From: Novosphingobium profundi
GTDB lineage: Bacteria > Pseudomonadota > Alphaproteobacteria > Sphingomonadales > Sphingomonadaceae
Assembly: GCF_020524485.1 (NCBI RefSeq)
Contig: NZ_JAIVLF010000003.1
Coordinates: 434,001 to 498,000 of the forward strand
Length of the DNA: 64,000 nucleotides
Direction: 5' to 3'
In this document: in pieces, positions 24,610-64,000 of the stretch
How the letters are laid out: each line of letters begins with the position of its first letter
How positions within the stretch are numbered: position 1 is the first letter of the stretch
Made by a program: the position numbers and the translations under genes
Notes under the pieces: model-generated
Databases searched by the model: none
What the model was told of the DNA's origin: nothing
The model's input: only the letters and a program-made list of their open reading frames with translations

Positions 24610-25035
24610 ATGAGCGTCAATACCGCCACCGCCCGCTACGAAGGTCTTGGCAAGGACGGCAAGGGCCATGTCGCCACGAAGTCCGGTGCGCTCGACGCGC
24701 CCTATGGTTTCCAGACCCGCTTCGAAGATGCCCCCGGCACCAACCCGGAAGAGCAGATCGCCGCGGCCCATGCATCCTGCTTCACGATGGCCACCAGCTT
24801 CGCCCTGGCCGGCGAAGGCTATACCGACGGCAGCCTGGAAACGACCTGCGAAGTCACGCTCGAAAAGGATGGCGACGGGTTCAAGGTGTCCAAGAGCGCG
24901 CTTTCCCTGAGCGCGAAGGTCCCCGGGCTCGATAAGGCAAAGTTCGAGGAGATCGCCGCCGGGGCCAAGGCGAATTGCCCGATTTCAAAGCTCCTGACGT
25001 GCGAGATCACACTCGAGACGACGTTCGCCTCATAA
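24610..25035 (+). CDS. OsmC/Ohr-family peroxiredoxin
   Basis: 141 residues. The reactive cysteine is in AAHASCFTMA (about residue 58) and the second in AKANCPISKLL (about 124), the arrangement of OsmC. The family reduces organic hydroperoxides. The start ATG at 24610 is favoured over 24601 because the AAGGA box lies 10 bp away instead of touching the codon. Confidence 0.93.
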   Translation: MSVNTATARYEGLGKDGKGHVATKSGALDAPYGFQTRFEDAPGTNPEEQIAAAHASCFTMATSFALAGEGYTDGSLETTCEVTLEKDGDGFKVSKSALSLSAKVPGLDKAKFEEIAAGAKANCPISKLLTCEITLETTFAS

Positions 25036-25057
25036 CTCCGGACCGGACCCGATCTGT

Positions 25058-25104
25058 GCCGGAGGCCGTGCCGTCATATCGGACATGACGGCACGGCCTC
25101 CGGC
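25058..25104. terminator. bidirectional hairpin between osmC-type gene and thiC
   Basis: A perfect 19 bp stem (GCCGGAGGCCGTGCCGTCA and its complement) with a nine-base loop. Neither side has a long T run, but the location between convergent genes suggests termination for both. Confidence 0.6.
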
Positions 25105-25125
25105 GTACCTGGGCTAACCGAAAGC

Positions 25126-27178
<2,053 letters not shown>

Positions 27179-53423: not shown

Positions 53424-54395
53424 TCAATTTGCACGGCCGACCCGACTCACTTGCGCAGATGGCGGACAAAGCAGATGGCTCCCCTCGGCGCGCATCCGCC
53501 GCACTCGTGACTTGCGCGACCGGTGCGTCGGATCACGAAACCAGCGCAGCCAATCCCCGGCATCCCGGCGCAACCAGTACTGCAAGCCCTGCTCCAGATC
53601 ATACCCCGCGCAATGCGACAAGCGCACACCAAGGATATCGGCCCGATCTTCCATCCAGCGCCGCTCGGAAAGACTGCGCGCATCCCCGTCTTCCACCACC
53701 AGATGGCCAAGTTCATGCCCCACTACGAGCGCCAGCTCGTCATCGTTCCTGGTGAATTCAATCAGGCCAGAAGATACCGCGACACCCTTCCCGTCCGTGT
53801 AAGCCGAGACCCCTGAATCCGTCTTGATAACCACATTGGCCCGACACACAGGAACGGTCACGACAGCCACCATACTGCGCCGTCCATCTCGCGAGATCTG
53901 GAGCATAATAGGCGTATCCCGTGCCTGATCAGCCAGGTAGCCAGCGAGAAAATCAGCGAAAAGCGCGGCATCCTTCTGCTCCGCAAGCAACTCCAAGACC
54001 GGCTTGCCATTGACGGCGACCACGTCATCGCCAGGCATGAGCCCAGCCTTCTCTCCCGGACTGCCCTCCACAACAGCCGCTATCTGCGGCAACTGCGACA
54101 TGCCCAAAAGGGCCGAAACCGCAGGACGATCCTTCTCCTGATAGGCCCCGATGAAATCGAGAACGATGCCAGTGCCTGAGGCCTGCTCCCGACAGAGGGG
54201 AGCCGCCGCCCGCTGAAGACGAAAGCCAACCTCTGCAAGGCGCTCCATTTGACCTCGAAGCTGAAGAGGCCAAGGCCTTCCCTCTTCAGCTCCCGCTTTG
54301 CCGGGCACCGCGCCAAGAACGAATGCACCCACCAGTGCAAAGCCAAGCGCAGCTACAAGAGAACGCGCGCGAACATAAAAATCTTTGCATTGCAT
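53424..54395 (-). CDS. PDZ and M48 metalloprotease
   Basis: 323 residues. Signal peptide or anchor (about 10-36), PDZ domain (about 100-180, with VVEGSPGEKAGLMPGDDVVAVNG) and M48 zinc protease motif HELGH at 227-231, third ligand Glu249 in MEDRADILG. It is 91 bp upstream of the wza-type gene on the same strand. The start has no clear ribosome site. It is a periplasmic protease of unknown substrate, perhaps EPS machinery or the divergent small protein. Confidence 0.88.
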   Translation of the reverse strand: MQCKDFYVRARSLVAALGFALVGAFVLGAVPGKAGAEEGRPWPLQLRGQMERLAEVGFRLQRAAAPLCREQASGTGIVLDFIGAYQEKDRPAVSALLGMSQLPQIAAVVEGSPGEKAGLMPGDDVVAVNGKPVLELLAEQKDAALFADFLAGYLADQARDTPIMLQISRDGRRSMVAVVTVPVCRANVVIKTDSGVSAYTDGKGVAVSSGLIEFTRNDDELALVVGHELGHLVVEDGDARSLSERRWMEDRADILGVRLSHCAGYDLEQGLQYWLRRDAGDWLRWFRDPTHRSRKSRVRRMRAEGSHLLCPPSAQVSRVGRAN

Positions 54396-56377: not shown

Positions 56378-58552
56378 ATGCTCCCCCCGCCAAATCAGGA
56401 CGAATACCCTGAGAATGATGGCTTCGAAGTCGATATTTCAGACCTCGTCAAGAAGCTCATCAGCATAGTCCGGCAGAATATTCTTCTCATTGCGGGGATC
56501 GTTCTTGGCGCCATAGTCGTGGGCGGCATCCTGACCTTGCTCATCACGCCCAAGTATCAGGCGAGTTCCCATATTCTGATCGAGAATCAGGCCGATCAGA
56601 TTATCGAGGGTGGCGATCTGCAGGAAGCGATCACCAGCAACGAGGTCGAGCGCTTTCTCCAGACCCAATTGGGGATCATCAAGAGCCGCGCCCTGACCGC
56701 TACGGTCATCGAAAGCGCTAAGCTCGACACCGATCCCAGCTTTTTCGAAGCCTTCGGCAGCGAGATGCCGGTCGAAGTCGAAGAGCCGGGGCAGAAGCTT
56801 GACGTCGTGCGCAAAAACGCCGCGATCGATTTGCTCTTGGAAAACTTGTACGTGGCGATCCCAACCGACAGCCGCATCGCCTCGGTCACGGTTACCAGCC
56901 GTAATCCTGAGCTTTCGGCCAAGCTTGCGAACGTCTACGCCGAACGCTTCATTGAGTACAATCTCAATCAGAAGTACGACAGCTCCAGCTACGCCCGAAA
57001 ATTCCTCGGCGACCAGCTCCAGGAAGCACGCAACAAGCTGACCCAGTCGGAAGAGGAACTCAACCGCTATGCCCGCTTTGCCGGCCTCATCCGGATCACC
57101 GATGACGAGAAGAACGGCGGCGGCCAGTCAACGGTTTCGGTGACAAACAGCCAACTGATGCAGGTGAACGCGGCGGCCGCGCAAGCCACAGCCGAGCGCA
57201 TCGCCGCCCAGGATCGCTGGAGGACCATAGCCAACCAGCCTCCGCTCACGCTCGGCGTCGTTAATTCCAACAACGCGATCATGCAGTTGCTTGCTCAGAA
57301 GGCCACGGCCGAAAGTGAACTGGCCGATGAGCGTTCGCGTCACCAGGATGGCTTCACGACGGTCAAGGCAAAGCGCGCCAAGATCGCGGAACTCGATCGC
57401 CGCATCGACAGCATCGCCAACTCGATCAAGCAATCCGCCAAGCTCAGCTACGAAGCCGCAGTCAAGCAGGAAGAAACGCTGGGCCAGCGGGTCGAGGAAC
57501 TTCGTGAGGAGGCTCTTAAGGAGCAGGACCGCGGCGTCCAGTATTCGGTCCTCAAGCGCATCGCAGACACCAACCGCACGCTCTATGAGAGTCTGCTGTC
57601 GCGCTACAACCAGTTGAACGCTTCGGCTGGCGCGTCGTCCAACAACATCACCATCGTCGACCGGGCAGTTGTCCCCCTCAAGCCGAGTTCCCCGAACCTT
57701 CTGCTCAACTTGTTCCTTGCCCTCGTGGCGGGTCTCGGTCTTGCCGCCGCGATCGTGACACTGCGTGAACTTCTCGATGACGCGATTCACTCACCGACGG
57801 ACGTCGAAAAGAAGCTTGGCCTGCCGCTTCTGGGTCTCATTCCCAAGAGCTCGCAGAATCAGATTGAGACCGAGTTGGCCAACAGCCGCTCGAGCCTGAG
57901 CGAGGCGTTCCGCTCGTTGGTCACGAACCTCGGCTACTCGACGGCCAATGGCTTGCCCGAAGTGCTGATGATTACGAGCTCCGGTGAGGGCGAAGGCAAG
58001 TCGACAACGGCTTCCAGCATTGCCATGGACATCGCTCGCCTTGGCAAGCGGACCCTTCTTGTCGACGCCGACATGCGCCGCCCCACGCTGCATCGCATCA
58101 TGGACGACAGGTCGCAATCAGGCCTGACCGACATCCTGACTGGCCAGAAGACACTCAGCGAAGTCGTCCACGGCTCGAAGAGCATCGACACCCTCGACTA
58201 CGTCAGCGCTCTGCCGATCCCCCCCAACCCCTCGATCATCCTGGCGGGGGACAACCTCACCCGCTTCATTCAGGAAGCGCGCAGCAAATACGATGTCGTG
58301 GTCCTCGACTGCCCCCCGCTCCTGGGCCTGTCGGACGTGCCCTTGGTCGTAAAGCACGTCGACGGCGTGCTCTTCGTGATCGATGCGTCGAGCTTCCATC
58401 GCGGAGCGGTCAAGTCCGCCATGCGCCGCCTTTCCATGTCCAACGCGAACATGCTCGGCGTCGTCCTCAACCGCTTCGCCCCGAAGTCCGGTTCGGATGA
58501 AGATGCGTACTATGGCTATAAGTACTACAACTATGGGCATGACCAGGGCTGA
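56378..58552 (+). CDS. Wzc/ExoP-type polysaccharide co-polymerase and tyrosine autokinase
   Basis: 724 residues from the ATG at 56378 (a TTG at 56366 is the longer option). Wzz domain with two membrane helices (about 35-60 and 440-460), long coiled coil between, then a BY-kinase with P-loop SSGEGEGKSTT (534-544), Walker A' LLVDADMRRP and Walker B VVLDCPPLL. The C-terminal tail DAYYGYKYYNYG has six tyrosines for autophosphorylation. It controls EPS chain length and export with the Wza-type protein. Confidence 0.95.
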   Translation: MLPPPNQDEYPENDGFEVDISDLVKKLISIVRQNILLIAGIVLGAIVVGGILTLLITPKYQASSHILIENQADQIIEGGDLQEAITSNEVERFLQTQLGIIKSRALTATVIESAKLDTDPSFFEAFGSEMPVEVEEPGQKLDVVRKNAAIDLLLENLYVAIPTDSRIASVTVTSRNPELSAKLANVYAERFIEYNLNQKYDSSSYARKFLGDQLQEARNKLTQSEEELNRYARFAGLIRITDDEKNGGGQSTVSVTNSQLMQVNAAAAQATAERIAAQDRWRTIANQPPLTLGVVNSNNAIMQLLAQKATAESELADERSRHQDGFTTVKAKRAKIAELDRRIDSIANSIKQSAKLSYEAAVKQEETLGQRVEELREEALKEQDRGVQYSVLKRIADTNRTLYESLLSRYNQLNASAGASSNNITIVDRAVVPLKPSSPNLLLNLFLALVAGLGLAAAIVTLRELLDDAIHSPTDVEKKLGLPLLGLIPKSSQNQIETELANSRSSLSEAFRSLVTNLGYSTANGLPEVLMITSSGEGEGKSTTASSIAMDIARLGKRTLLVDADMRRPTLHRIMDDRSQSGLTDILTGQKTLSEVVHGSKSIDTLDYVSALPIPPNPSIILAGDNLTRFIQEARSKYDVVVLDCPPLLGLSDVPLVVKHVDGVLFVIDASSFHRGAVKSAMRRLSMSNANMLGVVLNRFAPKSGSDEDAYYGYKYYNYGHDQG

Positions 58553-58555
58553 CCC

Positions 58556-59734
58556 ATGCGCCGGCGAGCCACTTCTAGGGTAATGCGTGTAGTCTGGGCC
58601 ATGGCAGCCATGGCTACGGCGGTGGCTGCAACGGGCTTGCAGCTGGACCGAGAGGCCCGCAAGAATCCAGCAGTCGCGCCCTGGGTGCCCTCGGCATTTC
58701 AAGCCTATGCCGCAGCCCCACTGGCCCGTGAAGCTTACGCACGTGGCGAATTCGAGGACGGCGCGGCCTACGCGCGCACCTATGTGCGCCGCCGCCCAAT
58801 TCCTGCCGAGGGGCTCTCGCTCCTGACCATGAACCTGCTTGGTGAAGACAAGGAGCGCGAGGCCCTCCCCGCGCTCCTCCTCGCCAGCCAGAGAGGATGG
58901 CGCGACACGTACACCCAGTTGCTGATTACCAGTTCAGCCGAGCAGGTTGGCGAAAGCGAAGTGGCGAGCCAGCGCCTGCTCGCGCTGTGGCGCCTACAAC
59001 ATCGCGAGGGACCGACGCAGGACCTTACCGCCAACCTACTTTCCATGCCCGGCGGCCCTCAAGCATTCGCCAACGGCTTGGACAAGGCCGACCTGTGGAT
59101 CACTCCCTTCCTGACATGGGCCATTACCCAAAACGTGCCCTCCACGAGTCTCGAGACAATTGCCGACGCGATCGCGGAGAAGAGCGTGCCGGTGGACTGT
59201 TCGTTGATTTCCGGCCCGCTCCGAACCATGGCGCGGCGCGGCGCCGGTGAGGCGGCCCAAACTGTTTGGAGTCGGTCTTGTCCCGACGACAACGCACGTG
59301 CCGAAGTCGGCGAATTCGCCTTCCGCAAGTCCTCTGCCCCACCAGGACCCAGCGACTGGGCCTTCCCTCGCCATGCAGGCCTTACCACCTCGCTCGTCAG
59401 TGGGCCTGCAGGGATTGGCCTCGACTACAGAAACACCGAGCACATGCGAGTTTCCGTGGCCCAGCGGATCACGGCCTTGAAGCCAGGCGAATACGTGCTG
59501 AGCCTCGACTATTTGTCGGGCGATGCGATGAATAAGCAACCGATCGTCCTCAAACTGACGTGCTACACGCAGGATGGACAGAACGGTCCTGCGGCACGCC
59601 TATGGATGAAGGACGAAGCCCAGGTCATCAGGATACCCGACGAGGGATGTAACGGGCAGGAATTTGCGCTATTGGTCGCGCATGGCAGCGGGACAATTGG
59701 CCAATTCAATCTGGAGCCAGCATCCGCAAACTGA
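58556..59734 (+). CDS. EPS-locus accessory protein, uncharacterised
   Basis: 392 residues, starting 3 bp after the kinase stop, so in the same operon. An N-terminal membrane helix (about 9-26) is followed by a helical, repeat-like part (about 50-230; ALAREAY-type and LALWRL-type helices) that looks TPR-like, and then a beta-rich C-terminal domain. No named family. Confidence 0.7.
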   Translation: MRRRATSRVMRVVWAMAAMATAVAATGLQLDREARKNPAVAPWVPSAFQAYAAAPLAREAYARGEFEDGAAYARTYVRRRPIPAEGLSLLTMNLLGEDKEREALPALLLASQRGWRDTYTQLLITSSAEQVGESEVASQRLLALWRLQHREGPTQDLTANLLSMPGGPQAFANGLDKADLWITPFLTWAITQNVPSTSLETIADAIAEKSVPVDCSLISGPLRTMARRGAGEAAQTVWSRSCPDDNARAEVGEFAFRKSSAPPGPSDWAFPRHAGLTTSLVSGPAGIGLDYRNTEHMRVSVAQRITALKPGEYVLSLDYLSGDAMNKQPIVLKLTCYTQDGQNGPAARLWMKDEAQVIRIPDEGCNGQEFALLVAHGSGTIGQFNLEPASAN

Positions 59735-59858
59735 TGGAAGCCGCAAGTTGCGGCAGAAGCAAATGACGCCTCGGCGCTTTGGCACCTGCCAGGCTCGTAC
59801 CCAGCTAGTGCAGCAGAGCCAGATCGTGCTTCATGGTTGAGACATTCAGCCCAGCCTA

Positions 59859-59903
59859 GAGTATTCTGCATCAAATGGCGTCATCTGATGGCTCAGAAGA
59901 CGT
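59859..59903. repeat. palindromic dispersed repeat, copy 2
   Basis: This copy is diverged but aligns to 29126-29169: TAGAGTATTCTG...TCATCTGATGGCTCAGAAGAC. The core CATCTGATGG is identical. It lies between the accessory gene and the lyase. Confidence 0.5.
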
Positions 59904-59986
59904 CGCAAACCCACGAGCAGGAGCCATTGCTCCGATGGAATCCGATCGCAACCCGCTCTTGCCCCGAACTTGCTGAAAGGATTGGC

Positions 59987-60793
59987 ATGCCCCGGTTCGC
60001 GCTTCCCACGATCTTTCGCGGAACCACTGCACTTTCCATCATCGGAATGGCTACGCTTGTCAGCCATGCGAGCCATGCAGAACCCGACGCCGCCCTATCG
60101 ACCCTGGAGCGAACACGCATTTTCGGCCTTCCCAGCGCGGTTCTGATCCCTCGCGGAGGCGATGAGAGCGGCCCTCCACTTCAATACGATGGAGGCGTCA
60201 TCACCCTGACCGCTGCGACTCATGATTATGTGTATTCAAATGATCGCACCAAGAACAAGGCAAGAGCCGAAGTCCAGGTGATGGCACCGATCCGACCAAC
60301 CGATCAGGTCAACGCTTCGCTGGATCTGCGGCTGCCTACCCTTGAGGCCAAGACATGGACAATCGTTCAGCAATGGCATGCGGGCGGACCGACCGCGAAG
60401 GCTCCGGGAGAACCCCCGATCTCGCTCCAGATACCGGCCAAAAATCCGGGCGAACTGCATGTCATCCTGAACCAGCAGACAGAACCCGGGAGCCCCGAGG
60501 TACGGTTTATCGACCTGGGTAAACTGCCCGTGACACCCGGAAGCTGGCATCACATTGACGAAGCGATCACCTGGGGTAAGGGTCAGCAAGGCTCCCTGAA
60601 AATCTGGGTCGATGGCGCCCTTTGCATCGACTACGTCGGCAGTCTGGGCTACGATCGCGACAACGGCATCACGTTCAAATTCGGCGTGTACCGAGCTGAA
60701 AGCGCGGCTGAGAAGAAAGGGATCTTGGACGCCTTCACAGCCGAATATCGCGACGTACGTCTGGCCGTACGGAAGCACTCTTCCCAAGATTGA
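59987..60793 (+). CDS. heparin-lyase-I-type polysaccharide lyase
   Basis: 268 residues from the ATG at 59987, with AAAGGA six bases upstream; the longer frame from 59837 is rejected. A signal peptide (ending ASHA) is followed by a jelly-roll with KARAEVQVMAP, TWTIVQQWHAGG and LKIWVDGALCIDYVG, the pattern of the heparin lyase I / PL_20-like family. It should cut uronic-acid-containing polysaccharide in the periplasm or outside. Confidence 0.87.
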   Translation: MPRFALPTIFRGTTALSIIGMATLVSHASHAEPDAALSTLERTRIFGLPSAVLIPRGGDESGPPLQYDGGVITLTAATHDYVYSNDRTKNKARAEVQVMAPIRPTDQVNASLDLRLPTLEAKTWTIVQQWHAGGPTAKAPGEPPISLQIPAKNPGELHVILNQQTEPGSPEVRFIDLGKLPVTPGSWHHIDEAITWGKGQQGSLKIWVDGALCIDYVGSLGYDRDNGITFKFGVYRAESAAEKKGILDAFTAEYRDVRLAVRKHSSQD

Positions 60794-61333
60794 CCCATCC
60801 CCGACATGCTAGGCGATAACGGACCGCGCGCGCCAACTCAGGGGAACGAGAACGTCCGGAACCTCCCCGTAGGAAGCGTGACACCGCGCCCTTTAGGCTC
60901 GCCAGGTGCGCCCTCACGCAGCTTGAATGCAAGAGTTTCGCCTTGAGGGACGACCCACCGGCTCCCTCGTAGCGGATCTATTGCCGCCAGCGAGCACGAC
61001 GCCGCCCCGCGTCTTCGCGGGGCACCTTTGCACAAAACACTTTCCTACAGGCTCAGGTCTGTCGTATCCTGCGCGCATTGTGAAGACGCCGGCATGCCCG
61101 TGCGCATCCTTCACCCAATGCAATCCCTTTACCAAGCGCCCTACCGCCTTTCGTCGCGCCCATGCACGCGCCGGAAATGCACTGTGGCCGCCTGTGCCAA
61201 TGGCGCCTGGCGTTCGTGCATCTGCACGCCATGGCCGAAAGCGCCCCTTCGTGGCGCGGGCTGTCTGTAAGCCCTTCGTCCCCCAGCACGCGCCAGGCAC
61301 GATTTCTCTCACCAAAGAGCGACTGGAGGCAAG
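60794..61333. other. 540 bp gap, no supported gene
   Basis: A hairpin GCCCCGCG/CGCGGGGC at 61004-61023 is the only clear structure. The open frame 60927-61337 has base use unlike genes here and no ribosome site, so it is rejected. The promoter of the phage-tail-like pair is expected near the right end. Confidence 0.5.
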
Positions 61334-61747
61334 ATGACACCCAGCATAAACTTGACGAGTTACCGTCACGCCGACTGGGGCGGCAGTGACGGGTCCGAGA
61401 TCGTCGCCTTTCTCGGCGAGGACCTTACACAGGCACACTTCGCATGGTCGTTTGCAGATCGCGCAGGAGGCAACGTCCTCCTCACGCTCGAGGCAACGAC
61501 GGAAGGGCTTCAGGGCCTCGTCGCCCGCTACGAGCCGGACTACGTCCACCCTGTCAGCGGCGCCGTCGTCGGAGCCACACTGCTCATCCCCCAGATTGAC
61601 CGCGAAACCCTGCTCGCTCTCGACACGCCAGGCGAGACAGGCGCCGACATCGTCCTCTTCCACACACTCTACCTGACCCGCGACAGCGGCCTCAAGCATG
61701 CCGAATTCGCCGGAAATTTCAGGATCATGCAGGGAGCTCCCAACTGA
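61334..61747 (+). CDS. phage-tail-like small protein upstream of tailspike-like gene
   Basis: 137 residues. The sequence has the form of the short proteins that precede tail-fibre genes in prophages: SINLTSYRHADWGGSDGSE, then FLGEDLTQAHFAWSFADRAGG. A small beta-rich protein, perhaps an adaptor. Its stop shares a base with the next start (TGATG), so the two are translationally coupled. Confidence 0.6.
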   Translation: MTPSINLTSYRHADWGGSDGSEIVAFLGEDLTQAHFAWSFADRAGGNVLLTLEATTEGLQGLVARYEPDYVHPVSGAVVGATLLIPQIDRETLLALDTPGETGADIVLFHTLYLTRDSGLKHAEFAGNFRIMQGAPN

Positions 61748-63456
61748 TGACCATCCATGTTGAACGCGGCCCGCGAAATATTGTCGTCACGCAAGGAAAC
61801 AACGCGCTGGAAGCTCGCCGGCAGGCCCTCGTCGCTGGCGCGCACGAACTCCGGACAAGGACCCTGGCCGACCAGGCTTCGACTGCTGCAGTCGCGGCCC
61901 TTGCTGCAGCGAACTACTTCGATACGCTCGAACGGGCGCTGGCCTCCACGCCCGAAGGCGCCAGTTTCACGACGACCGATCCTGCGGTAGCCTTGAACGA
62001 GGGCGAAGCGAATACCTCCGAAACCCTGCGTAGCTGTATCCGGACGAACGAAGCGCCCTACTATCGCTGGCTGGGCCCGGCTGCAGACCCGGCCAGCCGC
62101 GCCGACGTCGAACGCGCCGATGCCAAGGCCGCGTTTGCCGTCGGCAAGACTTCGATGACGATCCGGCCGGACGATCTGAACCTCGACTTCACGCTTCAAG
62201 ACGCCCTCGACAACGCCGACCTCGTAGTCCTTCATGACCCTCAAGGCAGCGGCTTCGCGCTTGATGTGGGACTTCAACTGCCCGTGTCCCGCCCGATCAC
62301 GCTGATGAGCCATCCGCGCGGCCGCGCCAGCATTCGTGCCACGGCGCAAATGGACGCGCTCATCACCCAAGCGGATACAAATCTCATCATTGGCACCGGG
62401 CTCCAGGGGCTTCACCTCGACTGCAACGACTTCGCCGCGCACGGCCTCGTCATCCAGCGCGGCAAGGCCTGGATCATCGATGACATCGACGTCACCGGCT
62501 TCCTTGATACCGGAATGATCCTGGGCAAGGACGGCGCTTCGGGTGCCTATTGCTACGAACACCAGATCAGCCGCCTCACCATCGATGGCGGAATTGCGAA
62601 GGCCCAGGCAGGCACGCATCCCAAGCGCGGAATAGGCTTCCTCGACGGAGCCACAGACAACAAGCTCTGGGCACCGGTGGTATCCTATGTCTCGGACTAC
62701 GGCATCGACAACAGCAGTGGCGGGAACAACTGCATCGCGTCCGCCCACGTTTATGGCCCCTGCGACTATTCGTTCGTGGCAGGTGGCGAATGCGAGTTCA
62801 TCGGCTGCTTTGCCGACACGCCAAGAATTGCCGGCTACCTGATCACAGGCGAACGAACGCAGATCATCGGAGGCAAGGTCTTCGCCAACATCGGCGCACT
62901 GGGGTACACCCCGGAAGCGGAAGCCTTCCGCTTCGACATGCCCCACCAGATCACCATCATCGGCGTACGCCTGCGCAACCTCGGCTACGACTTCAACGCA
63001 ATTGCCCCCTCGGACACCTCCACCGTCTTCGGGCTCGCTTACAGCGCGGTGACGACAGTCTCGTCCCGGCGCAACTGGGCGGGCCAGAGCATCCGTACGA
63101 GCGGGGCCTACGGAGCCGAGTTCCGCGCAGGATCGCCCGCTGGCCAGCGCGCCAGCATGATCCTCCATGACGAGAACGACAAGTCGCTCTGGCGCCTCGG
63201 CAAGGACAACTCCTCCGTGTCCGGGAACAACTCCGGAGCGGACTTCGATTTCGACAGCTACGACGACACCGGCGCTTTCCTGGCCACACCGCTCAGCATG
63301 ACCCGCACGGGAACAGTCCAGGTGATGGGCACCTATTCCGCGCCATTCCGCCTTGGCGCGCTGCGCATGTGGAACAACAGCGGCGTCATCTACGTGAAGC
63401 AGGGAAGCAATCCCACCTCCGCCGTCGACGGAACGGCATTGGGCCCGACGACCTGA
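61747..63456 (+). CDS. tailspike-like beta-helix protein
   Basis: 569 residues. The first 130 resemble phage tail-fibre N-termini, with helical ARRQALVAGAHELR and ANYFDTLERALASTPEGASF. Residues about 150-430 have the repeated strands of a right-handed beta-helix (for example GLHLDCNDFAAHGLVIQRG and CIASAHVYGPCDYSFVAGG). A C-terminal domain with MWNNSGVIYVKQGS resembles trimerisation or receptor-binding tails. No signal peptide is seen. Tailspikes often cut capsular polysaccharide; here that is inferred. Confidence 0.75.
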   Translation: MTIHVERGPRNIVVTQGNNALEARRQALVAGAHELRTRTLADQASTAAVAALAAANYFDTLERALASTPEGASFTTTDPAVALNEGEANTSETLRSCIRTNEAPYYRWLGPAADPASRADVERADAKAAFAVGKTSMTIRPDDLNLDFTLQDALDNADLVVLHDPQGSGFALDVGLQLPVSRPITLMSHPRGRASIRATAQMDALITQADTNLIIGTGLQGLHLDCNDFAAHGLVIQRGKAWIIDDIDVTGFLDTGMILGKDGASGAYCYEHQISRLTIDGGIAKAQAGTHPKRGIGFLDGATDNKLWAPVVSYVSDYGIDNSSGGNNCIASAHVYGPCDYSFVAGGECEFIGCFADTPRIAGYLITGERTQIIGGKVFANIGALGYTPEAEAFRFDMPHQITIIGVRLRNLGYDFNAIAPSDTSTVFGLAYSAVTTVSSRRNWAGQSIRTSGAYGAEFRAGSPAGQRASMILHDENDKSLWRLGKDNSSVSGNNSGADFDFDSYDDTGAFLATPLSMTRTGTVQVMGTYSAPFRLGALRMWNNSGVIYVKQGSNPTSAVDGTALGPTT

Positions 63457-63475
63457 CCGGGCGGCGGCCTGTCAG

Positions 63476-63515
63476 GCGAAGCCCCCCGTGCGAGCCCTCG
63501 CACGGGGGGCTTCGC
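63476..63515. terminator. bidirectional terminator
   Basis: A perfect 18 bp stem (GCGAAGCCCCCCGTGCGA and its complement) lies between the tailspike-like gene and the convergent glycosyltransferase. Confidence 0.75.
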
Positions 63516-63519
63516 GTGT

Positions 63520-64000
63520 TCAGCGTCCGCGCATGGCCACGTAGGCGTTCACCGCCCGGCGGTAGGTGCTGCGTGGCACGAAGCTCCGGGCGACCTGGCG
63601 CAGGCAGATGCCCATCGGCACCCCCGCCCGCAAACGCCCATCGACGATGTAGCCGAGCGCGCGCATCGGCTTCGCCCCGGCGAGGTAATAGGCCAGAACC
63701 GTCGCACGATATCCGCGAAACGCCTTGGGTGACAGGATCGGTTGCGCCTTCTCCAACCAGGCCGTCGGCGCTTCCCAGCCGCGATGGCGCGAGGTGCGGT
63801 TGTCTTCCGAGATGTCGATCCAGACCGTCAACGGCTCGGGAAGCATCCGGAAGCGCACGCCGCCCGCCTGCAGGCGCACGCAAAGGTCGAGGTCCTGCCC
63901 CTTGCGCAAGGTCGGATCGAAGGGAATGCGCCGCGCCGTCTCGGTCTTGAGAACCAGGGTCGAGGTCTGGATGAACTGGTTCGAGACGAAGAGATATTCC
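63520..64000 (-). CDS. family 2 glycosyltransferase, C-terminal part (5' end outside window)
   Basis: 160 residues are visible; the frame is open to the right edge. QTSTLVLKTETARR and FDPTLRKGQDLDLCVRL are the GT2 region around the base of the catalytic domain, with the metal/catalytic Asp expected in the QDLDLC segment. The rest is the C-terminal helical part. It would add a sugar to the EPS lipid-linked repeat. Confidence 0.85.
   Translation of the reverse strand, partial: EYLFVSNQFIQTSTLVLKTETARRIPFDPTLRKGQDLDLCVRLQAGGVRFRMLPEPLTVWIDISEDNRTSRHRGWEAPTAWLEKAQPILSPKAFRGYRATVLAYYLAGAKPMRALGYIVDGRLRAGVPMGICLRQVARSFVPRSTYRRAVNAYVAMRGR

Follow-up and report, generated by a model that had tools for sequence, protein, structure and literature searches.

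Gene content of the locus

The stretch of DNA analysed here, referred to as the window (C3:434001-498000, 64,000 nucleotides), belongs to a Novosphingobium genome of 4.64 Mb in 15 contigs. An exopolysaccharide (EPS) locus near its right end contains two adjacent genes, which encode a collar-like protein of 137 residues and a spike-like protein of 569 residues (61747-63456, + strand) and form the pair that is the subject of this report. The TGA stop codon of the collar gene and the ATG of the spike gene had one base in common, that is, the genes were coupled, with the collar directly before the spike. A preliminary description of the window had proposed a polysaccharide lyase followed by a translationally coupled pair, and this arrangement was confirmed by the family match of the lyase (PF14099, E 9.6e-19) and by the one-base overlap. 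The features of the pair were as follows.

61334..61747, + strand: side-tail-fibre collar- or adaptor-like protein, 137 residues; model with a predicted local distance difference test (pLDDT) score of 88; best PDB matches, tail tips of T5 and DT57C; homologues in tail clusters
61747..62112, + strand: spike residues 1-122, putative tail-docking anchor and linker; 45% identity with the spike of N. organovorum across 122 residues
62113..63456, + strand: tip of the spike, residues 123-569; close relatives not found; weak resemblance of the C-terminus to phage tail proteins

The genes on both sides of the pair are those of one EPS locus. Genes for Wza, Wzy, a Wzc-type kinase and a 392-residue protein without a known family were located to the left of the lyase and the pair. 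The genes to the right were convergent and continued to 12 kb past the window; they encoded a family 2 glycosyltransferase (GT2), a sulfotransferase, a flippase, a second sulfotransferase, Wzy, a family 4 glycosyltransferase (GT4), WecG/CpsF and UDP-glucose dehydrogenase. No further phage genes were seen on either flank, including these 12 kb, in agreement with the earlier statement that none were near. The pair was thus bordered by EPS genes instead of other phage genes, and no prophage was found to its right, where the EPS genes continued. The base composition, for which a comparison with the flanks had been proposed, was unremarkable: the G+C fraction was 0.62-0.63 in the two 1-kb bins holding most of the pair and 0.54-0.67 across the bins from 56 to 64 kb. 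In codon usage the collar ranked 17th and the spike 26th among the 65 genes of the window; hence, neither gene looked foreign, and both were ordinary for the host.

Fold and relatives of the collar-like protein

The AlphaFold2 model of the 137-residue protein was built from six sequences and reached a pLDDT of 88. Its four best PDB matches were the tail tips of T5 and DT57C, with Z scores of 10.5 for DT57C (112 residues, 3.0 Å) and 10.2 for T5 (112 residues, 2.9 Å), whereas immunoglobulin-type entries in the same structure comparison scored approximately 7. The model therefore has the beta-sandwich fold of a T5 p132 or LtfC type collar. The T5 chain that was matched is inferred to be p132 from its length and from PMC10038345, according to which the p132 collar carries the side fibres and the first ~50 fibre residues probably interlace with it. 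The window protein thus resembles the p132 collar of the L-shaped side tail fibres of T5, and that of DT57C, in its predicted fold and in being encoded with the fibre or spike that it would hold. In contrast to these phages, the window locus had no tail genes, and no significant sequence match was present.

No family was assigned to the 137-residue protein by Pfam (up to E 1) or NCBIfam, searches that remote relatives would escape. The window sequence used as a query matched nothing in phages, and the phage homologues were found with its relatives as queries. In Synechococcus phage Yong-M3-232 the collar homologue was followed by a gene annotated as a tailspike protein, and a phage contig in IMG/VR had the order hub, spacer gene, collar and spike. 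The latter collar was 58% identical to that of G597, which is located at a second type of chromosomal site, between an OsmC-like gene and thiC (the genome labels used are G000 for the own genome, G588 for N. organovorum, G602 for N. silvae and G597 for N. profundi). The order of collar and spike or fibre gene was the same in the relatives from phage tail clusters. In sphingomonad prophage tail clusters and in Yong-M3-232 the collar homologue stood directly before the spike or fibre gene, as in the window; the pair followed hub and tape-measure genes in those clusters, whereas it was alone among EPS genes in the window. The collar-like modelled fold and the position of the relatives before spike or fibre genes in tail clusters indicate that the 137- and 569-residue genes are, as judged from sequence and model, a collar and a spike that both derive from a phage, although the phage itself is missing.

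Features of the spike-like protein

The C-terminus of the spike (residues 462-565) weakly matched PHROG 4013 (function unknown, E 2.8e-4), 29706 (tail spike, E 0.005) and 17312 (tail, E 0.007). No Pfam or NCBIfam family was found for the protein, relatives in phages and plasmids were absent by tblastn, and pattern scans of genome contigs and viral contigs gave no match. Five weak matches (E 0.002-0.01) and those in G636 (E 0.005) and G680 (E 0.0015) were not used as evidence for the spike. The AlphaFold2 prediction from the single sequence had a pLDDT of 32 and was not used. The phage-tail nature proposed in the preliminary description is supported by the collar homologues preceding spike or fibre genes in tail clusters and by the weak PHROG matches. 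The proposed beta-helix is putative for this protein; a Beta_helix match just below the cut-off was obtained for the related spike of G572, at the thiC site. No signal peptide was seen by eye at the start of the protein, MTIHVERGPRNIVV.

The N-terminal part resembled a tail-docking anchor: residues 1-122 were common to another collar-linked spike, and the protein start could be aligned with prophage spikes. Residues 56-122, the linker, were 42% identical over 76 columns to the fibre of a prophage-like cluster in G572 (L063:7224-10106). This cluster was of podovirus type by eye, and its fibre and the window spike had different docking parts and a common linker.

Occurrence of the pair among genomes

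The collar was searched in 195 genomes of the genus at a cut-off of E <= 0.001, and all 12 positive contexts were read. Each of the 12 genomes had one copy, located in a tail cluster in six (G440, G552, G566, G611, G628, G680), in an EPS locus in three, and between an OsmC-like gene and thiC in the remaining three. The EPS-locus collars were those of the window, N. organovorum and N. silvae. The neighbours of the N. organovorum pair were genes for a sulfotransferase, GT4, GT2, Wzy and a flippase, and those of the N. silvae pair encoded UDP-glucose dehydrogenase, glycosyltransferases, Wza and Wzc. The preliminary description had suggested looking for the same pair in other EPS loci, and kin were indeed present in two further species, as well as at the second chromosomal site in three more genomes. 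At that site the pairs of G572 and G597 were intact, and that of G622 was found in pieces only. This thiC neighbourhood is also present in the window, where it lacks a pair and is 36 kb away from the pair in the EPS locus.

25033..25128, no strand: empty OsmC-like/thiC site; the pair sits here in G572, G597 and, decayed, in G622

Beyond the genus, the collar matched in 14 of the 298 genomes of a family sample, the own genome included. The contexts of 12 of the 13 other matches were fetched (not that of G274). Six were tail clusters (G008, G032, G073, G061, G246, G234), each with a long spike or fibre gene immediately after the collar homologue, and five matches without a pair were judged to be chance (G005, G110, G143, G221, G258). 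The remaining genome, G036 (L032:7927-11727), combined a distant collar with genes resembling those of a receptor-binding protein and a lysin, close to an EPSP-synthase-like gene; clear tail genes were missing upstream (gene names assigned by eye). The order-level search gave 10 of 396 genomes including the own one; G474 was judged to be chance, and G442 was a tail cluster with a weak match. The term tail cluster was based on gene family matches for G008 and G246 and on Pfam matches of tape-measure or hub type in these two and in G628. For most of the remainder it relied on BLAST similarity among their hub or tape-measure proteins, and for G552 and G566 on the order of the genes as judged by eye.

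Phylogeny, constraint and exchange of tips

In a tree of 16 rows the EPS-locus collars formed one clade (99/99), and the two intact thiC-site collars formed another (95/93). Compared with a first tree of 20 rows, two phage rows had been added and G472, G213, G188, G552, G566 and the decayed G622 fragment dropped. The collars of the window and N. organovorum differed most at codon position 3 (0.55 vs 0.36 and 0.30). Their amino acid identity was 51%, compared with at most 42% in 2000 neutral runs, and the corresponding values for the anchor were 45% and at most 34%. The absence of stops was weak evidence by itself, as 4 to 6% of the neutral runs were also free of stops. These comparisons show protein-level constraint on the collar and the anchor, as far as the sequences reveal it.

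The tips behaved differently. The spikes of the window and N. organovorum were alike in residues 1-122 (45%), nothing significant was found beyond, and the tips were wholly different between loci. Residues 135-568 of the N. organovorum spike and residues 114-549 of the product of a neighbouring gene (L062:6010-7680) had 61.6% identity in an alignment of 437 columns. This neighbour has a signal-like start, a beta-helix in common with the adjoining spike, and a segment resembling a Rhizobium phage tail fibre. Its start carries what we take to be a twin-arginine-like signal (by eye). Residues 47-130 were 43% identical to the tail fiber protein of Rhizobium phage 16-3 (E 1e-6), residues 42-130 matched a hypothetical protein of phage RHph_X2_24 (E 2e-10), and the same stretch matched a few plasmid places in Sinorhizobium and Ensifer. 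No PDB sequence match was obtained for this protein or for the window spike. The neighbour is perhaps a former spike in which an export signal replaced the tail anchor, while its sister would have kept collar and anchor.

Different tips behind a conserved anchor, and a tip common to a spike and a signal-bearing neighbour, part of which matches Rhizobium phage proteins, could also arise if phages and host swap polymer-recognising tips at the EPS locus, the resident pair being mainly a by-product or a donor. This explanation is improbable: no phage with an EPS-type collar was found, the sole IMG/VR match was nearer the thiC-site type, and the exchange, like the tip change between the N. organovorum spike and its neighbour, may have run in either direction.

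Upstream sequences

The two intact thiC-site pairs had SOS boxes at promoter-like sequences, which were GAAC-N7-GAAC about 260 nt upstream of the G572 collar and GTTC-N7-GTTC about 310 nt upstream of the G597 collar. Two genes in the own-genome sample had the same box at their 5' ends, one encoding an error-prone DNA polymerase (fragment match) and the other a radical SAM protein of the PA0069 family. As this sample contained 33 boxes in 1.62 Mb, the chance of a box within ~310 nt was below 1% per pair. None was found in the 700 nt upstream of the N. silvae pair or in the 249 nt readable upstream of the N. organovorum pair.

Possible role of the pair

The absence of phage genes to the right and the presence of related pairs outside prophages favour retention with the EPS locus. 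In the reading preferred here, to which we assign a probability of roughly 0.4, the pair would be a phage-derived, EPS-recognising tail tip that is kept with the EPS locus and acts after lysis, either free or on tails made elsewhere. A Novosphingobium lineage would keep a p132-type side-fibre collar and a tailspike in its EPS locus with no phage genes remaining. The collar and the first ~120 spike residues would retain the tail-docking parts, and the rest of the spike would be a tip that can be exchanged and that fits the polymer of its own locus. We infer that the spike most likely binds, and probably cuts enzymatically, the cell's own EPS as its target polymer after release by lysis, and that it would be delivered either mounted on phage-like tails encoded elsewhere or as free trimers. 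Recruitment to trim the cell's own polymer, an earlier suggestion, is partly supported: retention is favoured, and the trimming itself is conjectural, given that no signal peptide was seen in the spike by eye, that the docking parts have been conserved in both collar and anchor, and that damage affects two of the six pairs outside phages.

Several observations weigh against this reading. A conserved tail-docking collar and anchor would be odd for a free enzyme, and the constraint on them may date from their time in phages. The EPS-locus arrangement was rare (3/195 genus genomes), the N. organovorum pair was at a contig end with one side visible, and outside the genus all clear cases were in tail clusters except G036. 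In addition to the G622 pair in pieces, the N. silvae spike (L081:6608-8692) looked frameshifted, as its last ~90 residues lose coding character and another frame runs on (by eye); this 3'-end frameshift may be real or an assembly error. The non-phage collars, including the G622 fragment, were on one branch in the 20-row tree (90/92), and the single origin of all five fell to 69/0 in the 16-row tree, the weaker result being used. The window contained no SOS box (1.5 expected), so none was located at its pair. Moreover, partner tails were hardly visible. The hub of the closest prophage type was matched in 4 of 22 genomes, namely G597, G577 (a weak match) and two positive controls, G008 and G032, whose sequences had contributed rows to the search model; it was not found in five of the six pair-bearing genomes (G000, G588, G602, G572, G622). 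Other tail genes (24 query proteins) were absent from 84 pieces of the own genome besides the window's own spike linker, a weak negative because the pieces amounted to 1.64 Mb (8 kb counted twice), or ~35% of the 4.64 Mb.

The damage and the rarity would equally fit a passive remnant, that is, phages using EPS as a receptor left the collar and spike by recombination or prophage decay, with no function for the host. Furthermore, the 58% identity of the phage contig collar to that of G597 indicates that such phages circulate. This is the main and serious rival, and a real possibility. It has to account for the fact that only collar and spike were left each time, at two classes of site. The EPS-locus collars also formed one clade without a phage member among the tree rows, the intact thiC-site pairs have putative promoters of their own with an SOS box, and no significant match to other phage genes was detected between lyase and collar beyond the end of the lyase itself.

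The closest functional parallel to a retained EPS-directed tip is TspA (rcc02623) of the gene transfer agent (GTA) RcGTA, a phage-type tailspike gene away from the phage cluster. According to PMC13420450, a preprint, RcGTA has unlinked loci for receptor-binding proteins and TspA degrades biofilm polysaccharide. The target, a polysaccharide of the producer's kin, is shown there for TspA, and it would be analogous for the window spike. TspA is described with its own N-terminal beta-sandwich, whereas the window has a separate collar gene and no GTA marker. That the pair is itself an unlinked tailspike locus of an RcGTA-type agent is very improbable. The GTA_TIM (PF13547) hub, or megatron, was absent from all 20 genomes searched, the own and pair-bearing ones included, with a positive Caulobacter vibrioides control, and the preprint reports no TspA homologue with a GTA marker outside Rhodobacterales. 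An RcGTA-type agent was largely rejected on this basis, a divergent one without this domain aside, and the pair was not filed as a GTA locus. Secreted lyases of EPS loci, such as the PF14099 protein here, are a second parallel, as they are encoded among EPS genes and expected to act on the polymer of the locus, as would the spike; unlike them, the spike is accompanied by a collar and lacks an evident signal peptide.

An extended form of the preferred reading appears unlikely. The pair would be a host-owned, interchangeable two-gene tail-tip cassette at fixed sites, with an EPS-matched tip in one class and SOS control in the other, which re-arms or accompanies, in trans, phage-like tails made in the same cell, so that these attach to the EPS of kin and dissolve it; the cassette would evolve together with the EPS locus.

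The tailspikes of phages and the EPS loci of bacteria are commonly regarded as adversaries. The recurrence of the pair in the slime loci of related species suggests that a bacterium can retain phage tips directed at its own coat. The parts are known, and no earlier report of a tailspike pair in a Novosphingobium EPS locus was found among titles and abstract openings of the open-access literature. A recurrent tailspike and docking collar in EPS loci, with a different tip each time, offers a place to test the trade of polymer-recognising domains between phage and host, and it may supply depolymerases, each expected to act on the polymer of the adjacent genes. If true, the preferred reading would extend the idea of cells keeping phage tips for kin biofilm to another bacterial group, without a GTA.

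Lyase, noncoding elements and other genes of the locus

The lyase is an EPS-locus gene, not a phage gene, and is a matter separate from the pair. The other features near the pair were as follows.

59987..60793, + strand: polysaccharide lyase, signal-like N-terminus; Pfam Polysacc_lyase PF14099, E 9.6e-19; start by eye
61040..61050, + strand: CTTTCCTACAG; perhaps a promoter element; second copy ~240 nt upstream of the collar in N. silvae
63473..63518, no strand: inverted repeat with arms of 22 nt, separating the spike gene from the convergent GT2 gene; not listed by the T-run terminator scan

The open reading frame of the lyase spans 59837-60793 (+), and the in-frame ATG at 59987 opens an N-terminus like a signal peptide (by eye). 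The lyase ends 540 nt from the collar. Among the 195 genus genomes a relative was present in one other (E <= 1e-6), G622, about 50 kb from its decayed pair. The element CTTTCCTACAG was located 240-295 nt upstream of the window and N. silvae pairs, the only two places among 89 loci (copies of the same place aside); an additional exact copy, at L157 in the own-genome sample, weakens its meaning. The inverted repeat is possibly a two-way terminator. Rfam gave nothing above threshold over 58000-64000, the promoter and terminator scan gave a single site of each kind, neither above shuffles, with the promoter-like one located inside the spike gene, and no insertion signature was recognised in the repeat search.

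The polymer of the window EPS locus is perhaps sulfated and uronate-containing. Sulfotransferase genes were located in the EPS loci of two Novosphingobium genomes, at L003:8419-9573 and L003:10790-12499 to the right of the window and at L062:1006-2031 in N. organovorum, and the EPS of both is possibly sulfated, judging from these genes. The 392-residue protein encoded after Wzc (58556-59734) had a 36% identical homologue beside Wzc in G622 (L065:2036-3253). A gene for a PDZ and M48-type peptidase was present inside the EPS loci of the window (53424-54395) and L081 (13637-14620), both by Pfam, and of L065 (7311-8330, a 50% identical match).

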